This document shows positions 492 to 8,616 of a DNA stretch of 49,123 nt, piece by piece. The notes beneath the pieces are model-generated. The model was not told where the DNA came from, did no database searches, and worked only from the letters and a program-made list of their open reading frames with translations. A program made the translations under genes and the position numbers. Source of the stretch: Clostridiales bacterium (GTDB lineage Bacteria; Bacillota; Clostridia; Christensenellales; Borkfalkiaceae); assembly GCA_015069485.1 (NCBI GenBank), contig SVIM01000012.1, positions 1-49,123 of the forward strand, read 5' to 3'. Every line of letters begins with the position of its first letter. Position 1 is the first letter of the stretch.

Positions 492-536
492 AAAATACAA
501 AGCGCCGTGGCAAATTGCCACGGCGCTTTGTATTTT
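492..536 (-). terminator. long perfect hairpin, probable terminator
   Basis: Arms of 22 bases (492-513 and 515-536) are perfectly complementary around a single central base. The core is GC-rich (GCGCCGTGGCAA) and flanked by AAAATACAAA/TTTGTATTTT, so transcripts in either direction would end in a U-rich 3' side. The only nearby gene reading into it is the permease at 677-1552 on the minus strand. Confidence 0.75.
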
Positions 537-630
537 ATATTATTTAAACATTATATTTTTTAATTAAGGGCGATATATATTCGAATTAAACCGGATTTTT
601 TAAAAATAACGCGGTATATATAAAGCTTAT

Positions 631-663
631 AGGGCGGGGGAATTACAAAAATTCCCCCGCCCT
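631..663 (-). terminator. hairpin just downstream of the permease gene
   Basis: AGGGCGGGGGAATT pairs with AATTCCCCCGCCCT across a short A-rich loop, 14 bases after the permease stop codon. The sequence following it on the minus strand lacks a clean U-run, so it may act in tandem with the hairpin at 492-536 or as an mRNA 3' stabiliser. Confidence 0.6.
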
Positions 664-676
664 ATTATATTAAAAA

Positions 677-1552
677 TTATAACAAATTAAAAAGCACCAT
701 GCCTGCGTTTACAATTACGCCGGCTGCGGTAGAAATTACGTATACTGCAACGAGCAACAAGACGTTACGCTTAATTTTTTTAGTGTTGCGAAGAAGCACC
801 ATAAACCCAAGCCCTGCGTTTGTGCAAAGCCCTGCTACCATACTTCCAAACGCTATTCCGCCGTTTATATACGCGCTTGTAATTAAAACGCTTGAAGCGC
901 AATTTGGAATTAAACCGATAAGCGCGGTTATAAAGGGCTGGAAGTAAGGGCCACCTATCATTACTGAAGAAATTTTATCTTCCCCCACCGCGTCGATAAT
1001 AAACCCGAAAATTAAGGTTACTATAAAAAGATAGCCGGCTACCTTAAGCGAGTGAAAAAGCGGATCGAGCAAAAATACCTTTAAATTACTTTTACCCTCG
1101 TGCTCTCTGCCACAGGAATAGGCGTGAATTTCGTGATGATGCTCTTCGGGAGCGACGAGCGCTTCGTTAGAAAATAAGAAATTAAATAGATAACCTACGC
1201 CGATTGCCAATAAAAATTTAATTGCAACCAAAGGCATTACTGCGGGGGCGGAGGTTATATCGGCAAGCAGAATTATTAACGCTTCGTCGCTTGTTGCAAG
1301 AAATACTGCAAGTAACGTGCCCGTTTTTATTAAGCCCTTTTCGTAAAGCTTTGCAGCCATTACCGAAAAACCGCATTGTGGAATTATACCCGTTGCCGTA
1401 CCTACTAAAGGCGCTAACGGACCTTGCAAAAACCTTTGGTTTTTTGTAAAACTCGTTTTATTTTCTAAAAGCTCTATAACTACGTAAATTAAAAATAAAA
1501 ACGGAAAAATTTTTAATGTATCTAATAGAGCGTGTTCAATTACGTGCCACAT
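677..1552 (-). CDS. ArsP_2-like integral membrane permease, putative metal (manganese/arsenic) exporter
   Basis: The 291-residue product is almost entirely hydrophobic, with about eight to ten membrane segments. It shows the internally repeated signatures of this permease family: GIIPQCGFS near residue 55 in the first half and GLIPNCASSV near residue 214 in the second. A His-rich cytosolic loop (EEHHHEIH, about residues 135-142) separates the halves and could bind metal. Families with this architecture are annotated as heavy-metal exporters or putative manganese transporters; the substrate cannot be read from sequence. It begins ATG at 1550-1552 with only a weak AAGG upstream. A TATAAT box lies near 1600 on the minus strand. 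The gene stands alone, with terminators on both sides. Confidence 0.75.
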   Translation of the reverse strand: MWHVIEHALLDTLKIFPFLFLIYVVIELLENKTSFTKNQRFLQGPLAPLVGTATGIIPQCGFSVMAAKLYEKGLIKTGTLLAVFLATSDEALIILLADITSAPAVMPLVAIKFLLAIGVGYLFNFLFSNEALVAPEEHHHEIHAYSCGREHEGKSNLKVFLLDPLFHSLKVAGYLFIVTLIFGFIIDAVGEDKISSVMIGGPYFQPFITALIGLIPNCASSVLITSAYINGGIAFGSMVAGLCTNAGLGFMVLLRNTKKIKRNVLLLVAVYVISTAAGVIVNAGMVLFNLL

Positions 1553-1624
1553 ATGTACCGATTACCTTGCTTTTTGCTGTTTGTAAGCAATTTATTATAT
1601 AGACAATATTTTTTTAATTTAAAC

Positions 1625-1655
1625 GCAAAAGCCCCGCCTTTTAAGCGGGCTTTGC
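1625..1655 (-). terminator. terminator of the ABC ATPase gene
   Basis: Immediately after the stop at 1660, GCAAAGCCCGC pairs with GCGGGGCTTTTGC (one or two bulges) and is followed on the minus strand by a T/A-rich run. Confidence 0.6.
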
Positions 1656-1659
1656 AAAT

Positions 1660-2859
1660 TTATTTTTTATTTTTTTTACTTTCGGGGGCAGGCTTTGCTT
1701 TATTTTTAATATTTTCTGCCTCTGCAGGGGTTACGGGGATTATTTCCGCTTCTGCATAGCCCGTGTTTTGATAGTTTTCGTCACGCGAAAGTATAGATAA
1801 GGTTGTTTCCGCGTCGAATAAATATAATCTTTCCGCATCCACTTTTATAGCTACCTCTTCTCCCTTTTTGTTAGATTGGGTGGCTACTATTATTGAATTA
1901 CCAGCAAAATCACATTCGATAAAGCCTTCTGAAACGGAAGAGATTTCGGCTTTTATTTCACCGCCCTCGCAAACGGATAAATCTTCGGGACGAATACCTA
2001 CGGTTACCTTTTTATCGCTATTTTCGTACCCGTTAGCAAGGCGGGCTTCGACGCTTTTAGGAAGATTAATTTTTACGCCGTTAAAGCATACGAAAAGATT
2101 ATCTTCTTCCCTAACCACGGTTGCGTTGCGAATAAAATTAATTGTGGGGCTACCGATAAAGAAGGCAACGAATTCGTTTACGGGATAGTCGTATAAATTT
2201 GCGGGAGTGTCGATTTGCTGAACGAACCCGTCCTTTAAAACTACTATTCTATCGGCGATAGACATAGCCTCTAAAACGCTGGGCGTTGCGTAGATAAAAG
2301 CACCGCCTACCCTTGCCCTTAAGCTTGCAACGGTTGCTATCATTTGCGCTTTTAAATCTTCCTCAAGCCCGGAAAAAGGATCGTCGAATAAATATGCGTC
2401 AGGCTCTCTAACCAACGCCCTACCCAAGGTTATAAGTTGCTTTTGCTCGGTTGTAACCGTTTTAACCTTACGGCTTAAAACTTCGGTTAAGCCGAACACG
2501 GAAGCCACCGCCTTAACCCTTTTATCGATTAAAATTTTGGGAGCGTTGCGCTTTGCAAGGCCAAAGGCTAAATTTTCGTAAACGGTTTGTTGCGTGTTTA
2601 AGGTGTTGTTTCTAAAAAGCATTGCAACGTTTCTGTCTTTAACTTCCACATCCGTTACCGCTTTGTTTGCAATTTTAATTTCACCTTCGGTTACTTCTTC
2701 CAGACCGGCAATAACCCTTAAAAGAGTGGATTTACCGCTTGCTTCGCCACCGCATAGCACTAATAATTCGCTATCGTTTGCCGTAAAGGTTGCGCCGTAT
2801 AGCGCAAGCGTGCCCGAAGGATATTTTTTATTTACGCCGTTTAAAATTACGTTTGCCAT
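1660..2859 (-). CDS. MalK/MsmX-type ABC transporter ATPase with degenerate catalytic motifs
   Basis: By overall layout this is a CUT1 sugar-transporter ATPase: an N-terminal nucleotide-binding domain of about 230 residues, then a TOBE/OB-type domain with the typical VGIRPEDL segment, and a Lys-rich tail. The Walker A (GGEASGKST) is intact. The other catalytic motifs are not: the Q-loop Gln is Arg (MLFRNN), the LSGGQ signature reads VTTEQ, the Walker B glutamate is Asp (YLFDDP), the D-loop reads SGLE, and the switch His is Pro (IYATPS). The frame is long and clean, so it is not an ordinary pseudogene. I chose ATG at 2857-2859 because GGAG lies 6 bases upstream; an in-frame TTG four codons earlier overlaps that site. 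No permease or binding-protein gene is adjacent. It could be a regulatory or structural ATPase-like protein. Confidence 0.85.
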   Translation of the reverse strand: MANVILNGVNKKYPSGTLALYGATFTANDSELLVLCGGEASGKSTLLRVIAGLEEVTEGEIKIANKAVTDVEVKDRNVAMLFRNNTLNTQQTVYENLAFGLAKRNAPKILIDKRVKAVASVFGLTEVLSRKVKTVTTEQKQLITLGRALVREPDAYLFDDPFSGLEEDLKAQMIATVASLRARVGGAFIYATPSVLEAMSIADRIVVLKDGFVQQIDTPANLYDYPVNEFVAFFIGSPTINFIRNATVVREEDNLFVCFNGVKINLPKSVEARLANGYENSDKKVTVGIRPEDLSVCEGGEIKAEISSVSEGFIECDFAGNSIIVATQSNKKGEEVAIKVDAERLYLFDAETTLSILSRDENYQNTGYAEAEIIPVTPAEAENIKNKAKPAPESKKNKK

Positions 2860-2906
2860 ATCGTACTCCAATGCCCAAGCATTATGGGCGCATAGTTTAC
2901 CCCACT

Positions 2907-2935
2907 ATAATACCATATTTTTAAATTTTTACCAA
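2907..2935 (-). promoter_or_regulatory. sigma-A promoter of the ABC ATPase gene
   Basis: On the minus strand TTGGTA (2930-2935) and TATTAT (2907-2912) are separated by exactly 17 bases. It is divergent from the queH promoter. Confidence 0.7.
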
Positions 2936-2963
2936 CTGCATTAAACAATTTTTTTAAAATTTG

Positions 2964-2992
2964 TTGTAATTATTTTATTTTCGTGTTAAAGT
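2964..2992 (+). promoter_or_regulatory. queH promoter, possibly leaderless
   Basis: TTGTAA (2964-2969) and TAAAGT (2987-2992) are 17 bases apart, and only 6 bases separate the -10 box from the ATG at 2999. No Shine-Dalgarno sequence precedes the start, so the transcript would begin at or next to the start codon. The -10 matches consensus in four of six positions. Confidence 0.45.
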
Positions 2993-2998
2993 TAATGT

Positions 2999-3616
2999 AT
3001 GAACAAAACTAACTACCAACAAAAGATGCAAGAGCAGATTAAGCTTTTAAACGGCAACAAGGCAAAGCTGTTAATTCACAGCTGTTGCGCGCCCTGCTCT
3101 TCCGCCTGCCTTGAAAGGCTTTATAATTTTTTTGACGTTAGCGTTTTATTTTATAACCCTAATATTCAAACGGGGGAATACGAGAAAAGAAAGGCGGAGC
3201 AAATTCGCTTTTTAGAGCAAACGGGTTGGGCGAAATTTATTGACTGCGACCATAACGAAGAAGATTTTTACCTTAATATATGCGGACTTGAAGGCGAGCC
3301 CGAGGGCGGTAAAAGATGTGAAAGGTGCTTTGAAATTCGCCTTAAAAAGACGGCGGAGATTGCAAGGCAAATGCACTTTGATTTTTTTGCTACCACCCTT
3401 ACCCTTTCGCCGTTAAAAAACGCCGACATTATTAACGCCTTGGGGGAAGATATTGCAAGGCAAGTGGGCGTAAATTGGCTTTATAGCGATTTTAAAAAGC
3501 AAAACGGATATTTAAGGAGCATTGAACTTAGTAAAATATACCAACTTTACAGGCAAAACTTTTGCGGTTGCGCCTTTTCGGAAAAAGAAAGTTTTATTAA
3601 AGGGTTGAAAAACTAA
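2999..3616 (+). CDS. queH: epoxyqueuosine reductase QueH
   Basis: QueH performs the last step of queuosine synthesis, reducing epoxyqueuosine to queuosine at position 34 of tRNA with a metal cluster held by clustered cysteines. The 205-residue product has the family hallmarks: HSCCAPCSSAC near residues 27-37, GGKRCERCFEIRL in the middle, and a C-terminal NFCGCAFS. Length fits the family, formerly DUF208. No other queuosine genes are in the window. The start lacks a Shine-Dalgarno sequence, see the promoter entry. The last codons overlap the -35 box of the next gene. Confidence 0.93.
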   Translation: MNKTNYQQKMQEQIKLLNGNKAKLLIHSCCAPCSSACLERLYNFFDVSVLFYNPNIQTGEYEKRKAEQIRFLEQTGWAKFIDCDHNEEDFYLNICGLEGEPEGGKRCERCFEIRLKKTAEIARQMHFDFFATTLTLSPLKNADIINALGEDIARQVGVNWLYSDFKKQNGYLRSIELSKIYQLYRQNFCGCAFSEKESFIKGLKN

Positions 3617-3633
3617 AAAAATAATGCTATAAT
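3605..3633 (+). promoter_or_regulatory. strong sigma-A promoter for the carbamoyltransferase leader
   Basis: TTGAAA (3605-3610), a 17-base spacer and consensus TATAAT (3628-3633) overlap the 3' end of queH. Transcription would start near 3640, giving a 5' leader of about 155 bases before the ATG at 3795. Confidence 0.8.
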
Positions 3634-3658
3634 GTAATTAAATATAGGCAAAAAAGCT

Positions 3659-3748
3659 GCGTAATTTTACGCAAGAGCAAAGCACCGAGTTCTTGAAGAA
3701 AATGCGCAAGGGCAAAGCACCGAGCCCTTGAAGAAAGTTAGCAAGGGC
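3659..3748 (+). repeat. tandem 35-bp repeat forming conserved RNA hairpins in an mRNA leader
   Basis: Two full units of 35 bases start at 3672 and 3707, and a third unit begins at 3742 but diverges after its first seven bases. Each full unit is a 7-bp stem around an identical ten-base loop, AAAGCACCGA. Stem 1 is CAAGAGC/GTTCTTG and stem 2 is CAAGGGC/GCCCTTG: one A-U pair has become G-C and a G.U pair has become G-C, so pairing is kept despite changes on both arms. A separate palindrome, GCGTAA-TT-TTACGC, lies at 3659-3672. The linker GAAGAAA is also conserved. Confidence 0.75.
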
Positions 3749-3794: not shown

Positions 3795-4733
3795 ATGGAT
3801 ATTAACCGTTATTCCCCCACTTATAAAATTAACAAAACCCACATGACCAAGTTGGCAGGCTATACCAGCGAAGAAATATTTGAAATTTTATACGCAATAA
3901 AGACGATGAAAGCCAAATTTATTGCGCACGAAGAAACTAATATTTTAAACGGCACTACCATTGCGCTTTTGTTTGCAGACACCTCGCTTAGAACGCGCTC
4001 TGCATTAGAAATCGGCACCAAACAGCTTGGCGGTGAGTGCGTGCTTTTACCTTACAGCGCCGAGGATATGCAAGCCGGCGACAACGTAAGGGACGTTTTA
4101 AACGTTATTACACGCTACGGCGTAGGCGCGATAGTAACCCGTGGAGTAAACCAAGAAAGCTTGGATGAATTTATGCAGGTTTCCTCCATCCCCATTATAA
4201 ACTCCACCAACGAAAGATACGTGCCTATGCAGGTTCTTTGCGACCTTTATACCATTTGGGAAAAGAAGAAAAAGCTTGAAGGATTAAAGATGGCTTACGT
4301 TGGAAAGGGCACTAATACGGCAATATCCGGAATTATGGGAGCAATAAAATGCGGTATAGATATTTCGGTTGCTACGCCCGAAAATTACGCAATCCCTCAA
4401 CAGTATATCGACAGAGCGCAACAGTACGGAAGAATTAGCGTTACCACTAACCCCATTGAAGCGGTTAAGGACGCCGATATCGTTTATACGGACGGCTACC
4501 ACTATCACTCCGTAACCTCGGACGAAGAAAAGGCTGCGCTTAAGCTTTACAAGGTTACTCCTGCGCTTATGAGCTTTGCTAAAAAGGACGCTCTTTTTAT
4601 GCATCCACTCCCTGCAACGAGGGGCTTGGAGGTTTCTGCCGAGGTTATCGACGGACCTAACAGCATAGTTTACGACCAAGCGGAAAACAGACTTCATACC
4701 GTAAAGGCCGTGCTTGCGTTACTCGTTAAATAA
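3795..4733 (+). CDS. aspartate/ornithine carbamoyltransferase family enzyme, substrate unassigned
   Basis: The fold-level match is good: an N-terminal carbamoyl-phosphate domain and a C-terminal domain ending in the OTCase-like block DQAENRLHTVKAVLALL, 312 residues in all. The key motifs depart from ornithine transcarbamylase. The carbamoyl-phosphate loop is SLRTR (residues 64-68) instead of STRTR, the usual HPTQ is VPMQ (143-146), the catalytic HCLP is HPLP (270-273, as in aspartate transcarbamylase), and the ornithine-binding SMG loop is absent, with YTDGYHYHS in its place. SLRTR-type loops are known from acetyl- and succinyl-ornithine enzymes. No other arginine or pyrimidine gene is near. 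The start has a GAGGAAA ribosome binding site. I would not call it argF without a substrate test. Confidence 0.85.
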   Translation: MDINRYSPTYKINKTHMTKLAGYTSEEIFEILYAIKTMKAKFIAHEETNILNGTTIALLFADTSLRTRSALEIGTKQLGGECVLLPYSAEDMQAGDNVRDVLNVITRYGVGAIVTRGVNQESLDEFMQVSSIPIINSTNERYVPMQVLCDLYTIWEKKKKLEGLKMAYVGKGTNTAISGIMGAIKCGIDISVATPENYAIPQQYIDRAQQYGRISVTTNPIEAVKDADIVYTDGYHYHSVTSDEEKAALKLYKVTPALMSFAKKDALFMHPLPATRGLEVSAEVIDGPNSIVYDQAENRLHTVKAVLALLVK

Positions 4734-7170: not shown

Positions 7171-8616
7171 TTACCTTGCGCTTTTTATTGCGATTTCGTA
7201 GCCGACCAACATTTTTTGTATTAAATCGCTTTCGTATTCTTTAAAGCGCGAATTGTTATACTTATATAAATTTTGCTTTGCTCCGACCAAGTCGCAATTA
7301 TTTTGCTTACAAAAGTCGGTAAGGGCTGTAAGCGCCGATTTAACCGCCCCTTGCGTTGCGTCTAAAACCGTTTGTGGCATATTGTCGCTTTGTGCAAGCT
7401 TTTTTGCCGTGGCTTTTTCCGTTACGTCCTGCACCCTTGCCTTTGCCTTAAAGCTGTAGGAAAACACGGGTATATTATTTTCGAATTTAAGCCCCGTTCC
7501 GCTTTGCGTATTTCTAAGCCCCACCGCATAGCTTTTACCGTCCGCATCCACCGAAACTATTGCAAGCCTTACCTTGTTTTTTATTAAATTTAGCGCAAAC
7601 GCCTGCTCCTCCGATAAAATCCCTACGAAATTTCCGTCATTGAACACCGCAGTTTTACGGCAAGTAAATTCCGTCGTTCCGCCTGATTTTTGCGAAGAGC
7701 CCTGCGAGCCTTGCGAAGAGCCACCACCACCAGCCCCTTGTGATGATTTTTCACCGCCACCGCCCTCGGTGCTTGACTTACCTTCTTGCGAGCCGCCCGA
7801 GCTTCCCGAGCCACTTGACTTACCTTCTTGCGAACCGCCCGAGCTTCCCGAGCCACCCGACTTACCCTCTTGCGAGCCACCCGAACCGCCTACGCCACCT
7901 GCGTTACCGCCCGAATTTTGCGCCCCTTGACCGCCTTGTCCGCCACTTTCGTCGGCTATTTTTTTACCGTCCTGCTCTACGCCCTTAACCGACCCTTGCA
8001 TTTCCGTTTCGATATAGGGAATATAGCACGCCTTGGACGGAGATTGACTATCTTGCGCGAGCTCCTTTAAGTTTACCGTAGAAACGTTTGCCGATTTTTT
8101 AAGCTCGTCGGAAAGTATGCGTTGAAGGGATAAGGTCGTCATCGTAGCCATTGGCGTAGGCATAGAAAGTAGCTCCTGCGCCTTACCCTTGCACATAGTT
8201 ACAAGGGCGGTTAGCTGAGCGTATTCGTTACGGTAAAAATAATCTAACGTTTCGAAAACGTTTTTGCTTTTACACGATTCCCCTAATAGTATTAGCCTAC
8301 AATGCAATAATTTTGGGTAAAATCCCGTTTTAGAATTTATTTCGTTTAACGCTTCCGCAACGGTTACGCCCTTGCCCGAAACTTCGGTATAAGAAGTGTT
8401 TTCGCCGTTTTCAGAAGGCTGGGGAACGGCAATTTGCGCCGTTACTAAAAAGCTGTTATCTTCTTCGATATCAATGCCAACCGCCATTACGATAGAGGTT
8501 TTATGGATATCTACAAGACCGAAATCGTTTGTAAAAAAAAGGTAGCTAGCCAAGGCAAAAACGAGCGTATAGCAAATTAAGGGTAGCTTTTTTAGCGCCG
8601 ATTTAAGCTTTTGCAT
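7171..8616 (-). CDS. gerAC: spore germination protein GerAC (Ger(x)C family) with Gly/Ser-rich insertion
   Basis: GerAC is the third subunit of the germinant receptor in the inner spore membrane. The N-terminal domain has the family pattern VDIHKTSIVMAVGID (residues 35-49) and the C-terminal domain (about 316-481) is the usual Ger(x)C fold. Two features are odd. First, there is no lipobox cysteine; a hydrophobic segment (about 11-29) would act as a membrane anchor instead. Second, residues 224-313 are almost pure Gly, Ser, Gln, Glu and Lys, including three copies of a 14-residue unit GGSQEGKSSGSGSS encoded by 42-bp tandem repeats. This lengthens the protein to 481 residues against roughly 370-400 normally. 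It overlaps gerAB by 14 bases and has a GGGGGAAGG ribosome binding site. Confidence 0.88.
   Translation of the reverse strand: MQKLKSALKKLPLICYTLVFALASYLFFTNDFGLVDIHKTSIVMAVGIDIEEDNSFLVTAQIAVPQPSENGENTSYTEVSGKGVTVAEALNEINSKTGFYPKLLHCRLILLGESCKSKNVFETLDYFYRNEYAQLTALVTMCKGKAQELLSMPTPMATMTTLSLQRILSDELKKSANVSTVNLKELAQDSQSPSKACYIPYIETEMQGSVKGVEQDGKKIADESGGQGGQGAQNSGGNAGGVGGSGGSQEGKSGGSGSSGGSQEGKSSGSGSSGGSQEGKSSTEGGGGEKSSQGAGGGGSSQGSQGSSQKSGGTTEFTCRKTAVFNDGNFVGILSEEQAFALNLIKNKVRLAIVSVDADGKSYAVGLRNTQSGTGLKFENNIPVFSYSFKAKARVQDVTEKATAKKLAQSDNMPQTVLDATQGAVKSALTALTDFCKQNNCDLVGAKQNLYKYNNSRFKEYESDLIQKMLVGYEIAIKSAR
7748..7893 (-). repeat. 42-bp tandem repeat inside gerAC
   Basis: About three near-identical 42-bp units encode GGSQEGKS(S/G)GSGSS. 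Positions are approximate. Third-position changes between the units suggest that the repeat is retained rather than very recent. Confidence 0.75.

Follow-up and report, generated by a model that had tools for sequence, protein, structure and literature searches.

Few enzymes have been studied as much as ABC ATPases, whose signature and H-loop residues touch the gamma-phosphate and are required for efficient hydrolysis. The window, the whole stretch of 49,123 nucleotides that we analysed, encodes an ATPase of the MalK/MsmX sugar importer type in which these and other catalytic residues are replaced. Is this gene decaying, does its product still power a transporter, or is it kept for something other than hydrolysis? 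The features of the locus are listed below; ortholog counts refer to the 86 orthologs found in the genus of the window.

677..1552, minus strand: ArsP-like permease gene (NF037962 arsenic_eff, PF11449, PF03773), 3' neighbour of the ATPase gene
1594..1623, minus strand: promoter-like site 5' of the arsP-like gene, TTTAAA-18-TATAAT; such matches do not exceed those in shuffled sequence
1633..1649, minus strand: terminator-like hairpin between the ATPase and arsP-like genes; such matches do not exceed those in shuffled sequence
1660..2859, minus strand: gene for a degenerate MsmX/MalK-type ATPase (putative pseudo-ATPase), 399 aa, ATG at 2859
1663..1707, minus strand: basic C-terminal tail, last 15 residues; mean 7.3 K/R and 1.4 D/E over 84 orthologs
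1978..2154, minus strand: OB_MalK (regulatory) domain, residues 236-294 (PF17912, 41 bits)
2281..2283, minus strand: H-loop position 193, His to Pro; K 81, R 4, P 1, H 0 (n=86)
2362..2364, minus strand: D-loop position 166, Asp to Glu; D 78, S 5, N 2, E 1 (n=86)
2380..2385, minus strand: Walker B Asp159 (86/86) and catalytic position 160, Glu to Asp; E 47, D 39 (n=86)
2443..2457, minus strand: signature residues 135-139, LSGGQ to VTTEQ; first Gly in 0/86, second Gly in 5/86
2611..2613, minus strand: Q-loop position 83, Gln to Arg; R 36, Q 21, G 10, K 10, S 5, N 2, A 1, gap 1 (n=86)
2725..2751, minus strand: Walker A GGEASGKST, residues 37-45; Lys43 in 85/85 orthologs having the site
2821..2823, minus strand: A-loop aromatic Tyr13, kept; Y 77, F 8 among the 85 orthologs having the site
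2999..3616, plus strand: queH (PF02677), divergent neighbour
3795..4733, plus strand: aspartate/ornithine carbamoyltransferase gene (PF00185, PF02729), neighbour

Motifs, fold and conservation of the ATPase

The protein matches MalK, UgpC and MsmX along its length, as the initial annotation had noted from the sequence. It contains ABC_tran and OB_MalK domains, the latter confirming the TOBE-like region described earlier, and a GGAG six bases 5' of the ATG (by eye) agrees with the proposed ribosome binding site. The AlphaFold model is confident (mean pLDDT 90.8) and MalK-like, with 7x0q, AlgS, MalK and MsmX as top Foldseek matches, and the predicted model has the RecA-like, helical and OB/TOBE fold by which MalK/MsmX-type sugar ABC ATPases are recognised. 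The protein matches MalK and UgpC models strongly, yet it falls below the curated NCBIfam cut-offs of all 25 families shown (UgpC PRK11650, 288.4 vs 432 bits; MalK PRK11000, 237.2 vs 568). The label 'sugar ABC transporter ATP-binding protein' would be misleading for this gene.

Residue numbers are collinear with MsmX throughout the NBD. Alignment to canonical relatives bore out the intact Walker A and all five substitutions reported initially (Q83R, LSGGQ to VTTEQ, E160D, D166E, H193P), the signature being changed at L135V, S136T, G137T and G138E. The statement that every motif except Walker A is altered claimed too much. In the window protein Walker B still has Asp159 and the A-loop still has Tyr13, and across the genus the D-loop Asp (78/86) and the catalytic Glu (47/86) are often present; loss from all 86 orthologs is confined to the first signature Gly and the H-loop His.

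We searched 93 genomes of the window's genus (g1, family f1) using a profile built from 21 orthologs, with 19 candidates scored per genome (17 in the other genome search). Orthologs were found in 86 genomes at 466-696 bits, other MalK-type genes reaching at most 419 bits, and matches cover nearly the whole profile in 84 of the 86. Two further genomes carry an ortholog cut by a contig end. We saw no clean loss of the ATPase among the 93 genomes. A scan of genome contigs gave 15 loci, comprising 11 canonical, one partial with canonical D- and H-loops, and three distant (21-24% identity).

Neither the LSGGQ signature nor the H-loop His occurs in any of the 86 orthologs, and the first signature Gly is replaced by Ala (58), Ser (17) or Thr (11). 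The H-loop position is basic (K/R) in 85 of 86, with Pro in the window alone, and the next residue is Asn in 76 and Ser in 10. The basic residue and the Asn/Ser after it look like a new motif rather than drift. The Q-loop, signature, catalytic, D-loop and H-loop sites are jointly altered in two orthologs, those of the window and G066. The orthologs form a conserved series, and the window species, which lies at its most altered extreme, is atypical of the genus. Being fixed in all 86 orthologs found by the genus search, the pattern exceeds chance.

To estimate selection, we applied a pairwise codon model to the nine most similar of the 210 possible pairs among the 21 orthologs. Only two of the nine pairs had dS <1.5, and these gave dN/dS of 0.073 and 0.072 for the whole gene, 0.032 and 0.045 for residues 1-235, and 0.117 and 0.100 for the remainder; the other seven (dS >=2.5, several without limit) tell little. 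ArsP in the two usable pairs gave 0.050 and 0.141. In the sister genus g27, dN/dS was 0.057-0.115 in five degenerate pairs (dS 1.0-3.4) and 0.009-0.076 in eight canonical pairs. The degenerate ATPase is under purifying selection.

Gene neighbourhood and the ArsP-like permease

The ArsP-like gene lies 107 bp downstream of the ATPase gene on the same strand, and its product is above the NF037962 curated cut-off (235.6 vs 100 bits). The earlier remark that no permease is adjacent therefore holds for ABC permeases, but not for permeases of any kind. The two genes are adjacent and co-directional in 81 of 86 genomes of the genus, with gaps of 22-902 bp (median 107); in the remaining five each gene has a separate contig, close to the contig end judging by coordinates. 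The order carbamoyltransferase-queH-ATPase-arsP is kept in most of the 21 loci compared and is variable past arsP. Hairpins are visible by eye in many of the gaps between genes, so the two genes may be separate transcripts. In the window, the good promoter and terminator described initially do not stand out from background: positions 500-3700 hold nine promoter-like matches against 8.0 (sd 2.8) in shuffled sequence, and four terminator-like matches against 5.2 (sd 2.1). No RNA switch was found in the window by Rfam at the gathering threshold.

Outside g1, the loci fetched for 14 of 17 degenerate g27 copies contain ArsP, as do those for G133 and for 29 of the 36 canonical g27 copies fetched with flanks. 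Since ArsP also lies beside the canonical ATPase in g27 and G133, the linkage is older than the degeneration, and ArsP is an old neighbour; this is no proof of a common function. In three g27 genomes with a degenerate ATPase (G560, G553, G518), ArsP was not found at E<=1e-20. Taken together, the checks proposed in the initial annotation gave positive results inside the genus, namely the same changes in orthologs (motif counts, 86 orthologs), a fixed neighbour (the ArsP-like gene, 81/86) and a low dN/dS (~0.07, two usable pairs).

Five genomes of the genus (G001, G005, G010, G069, G092) have neither the ATPase ortholog nor ArsP. We considered this co-loss as a sign of a functional pair and rejected it, since four of them also lack the carbamoyltransferase gene (E<=1e-60) and the G092 contig stops inside queH, so that assembly gaps explain the pattern equally well.

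Two other features of the window were observed. Between queH and the carbamoyltransferase gene (3670-3739) there are two head-to-tail 35-base units, 86% identical. Positions 7171-8616 encode a 481-aa protein with a long Gly/Ser/Gln-rich low-complexity stretch and near-repeats, which may resemble a spore-germination protein.

Canonical relatives, sugar importers and origins

Among 103 genomes of g27, the corresponding gene is canonical in 79 (seven truncated), degenerate in 17 and unassigned in seven (G503, G523, G526, G510, G491, G548, G550), although G510 and G550 retain a C-terminal piece where a contig ends. Elsewhere in the family, the top profile match is canonical in G133, G371, G341, G441, G432, G414, G361 and G423, and degenerate in G388. 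Canonical orthologs, which had been named in advance as evidence against a pseudo-ATPase, are thus absent within the genus and present outside it. Their presence outside indicates that the degenerate state is derived and not noise. The H-loop position in the 18 degenerate copies (17 from g27 and G388) holds E 4, R 3, H 3, D 3, A 2, S 2 and K 1, and some g27 copies are shortened (G175). We also observed a g27 copy with an LNGGQ signature and otherwise canonical catalytic motifs (G544, locus L306), a possible early stage.

We compared the number of sugar importers between the two forms. PF00528 is too broad as a measure of sugar importers (some BPD_transp_1 permease is present in all 93 g1 genomes), and a MalG query was used instead. 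With the seven unassigned genomes left out, g27 genomes carried on average 1.1 MalG-like permeases when the ATPase was degenerate (n=17) vs 4.8 when it was canonical (n=79) (one-sided Mann-Whitney p 2e-7, in a test that ignores kinship). Across five independent pairs on a 45-row ArsP tree, the trend agreed in 4.6, was opposite in 0.0 and showed no difference in 0.4 on average; the sign test gives p 0.0625 at best, and five pairs cannot go lower. There are exceptions, as the canonical G482, G496 and G514 have no MalG-like permease and the degenerate G519 has five.

Within g1, 44 of the 86 genomes bearing the ortholog lack MalG-like permeases at E<=1e-15. Seven of the 86 (G066, G025, G071, G073, G099, G034, G101) have neither another MalK-type match (E<=1e-60, 19 candidates scored per genome) nor a MalG-like permease at E<=1e-15; six of these are at least 90% complete and G034 is 77% complete, with contamination of 0-6%. 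The gene thus persists in some genomes where no other MalK-type ATPase or MalG-like permease was detected at these thresholds. With no further MalK-type ATPase seen in these seven genomes, it is unlikely that the protein depends on an active partner, and the pairing with an active ATPase suggested by the initial annotation does not hold as a general rule.

The window's own genome has one MalG-like permease, beside its own canonical ATPase in a maltose-type operon. This paralog (locus L065, 6110-8029, contig G000:C13) is read as 639 aa, ~265 residues longer than the 373-residue MsmX chain, and open frames of ~620-700 aa recur at maltose-operon-type MalK genes across the family.

To trace the degenerate state, we built a joint ATPase tree from 21 of the 86 g1 orthologs, the 17 degenerate g27 copies and 18 of the 79 canonical g27 copies. 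Every degenerate sequence fell in one clade (100/98) and the AU test rejected a g27 clade (p 0.0003), in an analysis where the tree program flagged ten long branches. The placement changed when the degenerates of each genus were run apart. Eight of the 17 degenerate g27 copies, kept mostly for their short branches while all g1 rows, G388 and two outgroup rows were left out, nested inside g27 (97/90), in a run with a long-branch warning where the outgroup was not one group and the fork placing the degenerates was weak (83/0). When nine of the 21 g1 rows were kept and all g27 degenerates, G388 and two outgroup rows were left out, g1 fell outside a g27+g28 clade (100/98), also with a long-branch warning. 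The ArsP tree recovered both genera as clades (g27 99/98, g1 99/92), with the degenerate g27 genomes scattered, and forces at least five state changes within g27.

We read the joint clade as an effect of long-branch attraction, and its fully supported branch is probably misleading. At least two origins of the degenerate state appear likely. A single origin of all degenerates was set aside, since the placement shifts when the sets are run apart and the full tree splits a genus that ArsP recovers. It is also possible that one old degenerate lineage moved between genomes. As an observation on tree building, a joint run unites the fast-evolving degenerates of g1 and g27 at full support, even with a site-mixture model, but separate runs pull them apart.

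G486 (degenerate) and G487 (normal) are sisters by ArsP, with 88% identity in ArsP and 55% in the ATPase. At four-fold sites they agree in 77/136 for ArsP (rank 1) and in 39/99 for the ATPase (rank 25 of 27 canonical genomes). This low ATPase agreement argues against recent conversion in place, and at least this G486 copy was exchanged or is old. Four other such comparisons showed no clear excess (ATPase ranks 12, 15, 5 and 13 of 27). Many independent in-place conversions within g27 were also considered; the G486/G487 codon comparison speaks against at least one of them, so we claim only two origins. No remnant of a normal gene was found upstream of the degenerate ATPase in G486, where there are two other ORFs. 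These (L197, 4450-6137) are mutually similar and lipoprotein-like by eye, and lie between the upstream gene and the ATPase, where G487 has a short gap.

Possible function and comparison with known systems

In the reading that we consider probable, an MsmX-type ATPase shared by several importers was left without these clients, ceased to hydrolyse ATP (probably on two or more occasions) and was kept as an ATP-binding pseudo-ATPase. The ancestor would have been a shared ('multitask', MsmX-type) ATPase powering several CUT1 sugar importers; its gene has an ArsP-like permease gene as neighbour in several of the family's genera. Loss of the importers that relied on it, or gain of importers with their own ATPase, would have lifted selection for hydrolysis, and under relaxed selection the signature glycine and H-loop histidine could be lost. 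In g1 the product would have been retained and fixed again as a pseudo-ATPase whose H-loop carries a new, conserved basic residue (ATKN in most orthologs; Pro in the window). Judging from its motifs, this protein should bind Mg-ATP via the A-loop Tyr, Walker A and Walker B Asp, with hydrolysis very slow or absent; slow hydrolysis is possible, since the catalytic Glu remains in 47 and the Q-loop Gln in 21 of the 86 orthologs. The earlier proposal of binding without turnover gains indirect support in that the residues holding the nucleotide remain, the genus has no signature Gly (first position) or H-loop His, and selection is purifying. ATP-state-dependent binding or a regulatory role is most likely, and its output would most likely be protein binding or ATP-state sensing via the helical and OB/TOBE domains and the basic tail. 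A regulatory scaffold, also suggested initially, is possible.

Could the protein instead be an ATP-dependent or regulatory partner of the ArsP-like permease? The near-constant linkage in g1, broken only by contig ends in five genomes, and in degenerate g27 copies favours such a role. We find it unlikely, as the linkage predates the degeneration, three genomes keep the degenerate gene with no ArsP found, and the hairpins suggest that transcripts may be separate. To our knowledge, no ATPase requirement is known for ArsP proteins. An asymmetric heterodimer with an active MalK/MsmX-type ATPase, regulating or slowing a sugar importer as in ABC exporters with one degenerate site, is consistent with the predicted fold and OB domain, and the window's own genome does encode a canonical paralog. 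Several sugar importers share one ATPase in B. subtilis (MsmX) and in S. pneumoniae (MsmK), and mutations at four MsmX residues (D77, R104, E110, K154) impair importer energising (PMC7658222). R104 (86/86), D77 (76/86) and K154 (68/86) are largely kept here; E110 is kept in 0/86, though only 8/44 canonical relatives have it. Loss of both signature and H-loop in one chain would impair both composite sites, and the seven genomes named above offer no other MalK-type match or MalG-like permease. We therefore rate the heterodimer as quite improbable.

Slow decay of a gene with no present function would account for evolution faster than that of normal copies, with long branches and the G486/G487 divergence, and for the shortened g27 copies. 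The low dN/dS in g1, lower in the NBD than in the C-terminal part of both usable pairs, the basic H-loop residue in 85/86 orthologs and the nearly whole-profile matches in 84/86 argue against it, and we hold it very unlikely. Least likely of the four is that the protein still works as an ATPase, its motifs being unusual, and drives an importer type outside those searched. The frequent catalytic Glu and D-loop Asp and the BPD_transp_1 permeases in every genome would fit; the H-loop His and first signature Gly are absent from all 86 orthologs, and BPD_transp_1 matches number just three or four in genomes such as G034, G073 and G101, a count made whether or not these permeases have their own ATPase.

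Returning to the pseudo-ATPase, we suggest more tentatively that MsmX-type ATPases of this family may have a second job that needs ATP binding and not hydrolysis, an idea we put forward with some doubt. If true, it would explain why the gene was retained after importer loss and converted at least twice, and the fixed H-loop Lys of g1 may hold the gamma-phosphate and lock the ATP state, giving an ATP-level sensor or scaffold in importer-poor cells. Sister genera with normal and degenerate forms of apparently the same gene allow a stepwise study of the conversion of a motor to a pseudo-ATPase, and whether shared ATPases act beyond transport becomes testable.

A search of open-licence literature (titles and abstract starts) gave no pseudoenzyme among MalK/MsmX-type ATPases, and no free-standing importer-type ATPase with genus-wide signature and H-loop loss under purifying selection. 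The nearest solved chain to the window ATPase is 7x0q (Clo1313_2554). Like MsmX of Bacillus subtilis (PDB 6yir) and the MalK type, the protein has the same (predicted) fold, domain order, Walker A, Walker B Asp, A-loop aromatic and R104, and the corresponding sister-genus gene is canonical. Unlike them, its orthologs have lost the signature and H-loop, often also the Q-loop and catalytic Glu, and persist without MalG-like permeases in about half of the genomes. Its C-terminus is ~35 residues longer than that of MsmX; canonical family relatives are longer still, so the extension is not special to it. ArsP-type permeases (NF037962), the family of the neighbour, have no homology to the ATPase, and three degenerate-bearing genomes lack them at the threshold used.

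TAP, CFTR and MRP1 are heterodimeric ABC proteins with a degenerate site, in which one NBD lacks catalytic residues and keeps ATP binding. The window ATPase resembles them in the loss of catalytic residues and, as its motifs suggest, in retained ATP binding. In contrast to them, one soluble chain with no membrane domain bears both degenerate halves, and the 19 candidates scored per genome included no active partner from its family in seven genomes. Pseudoenzymes in general have lost catalytic residues while fold and selection are kept, and this is what we found for the window ATPase, with its catalytic residues lost, a MalK-like fold in the predicted model and purifying selection on the gene.
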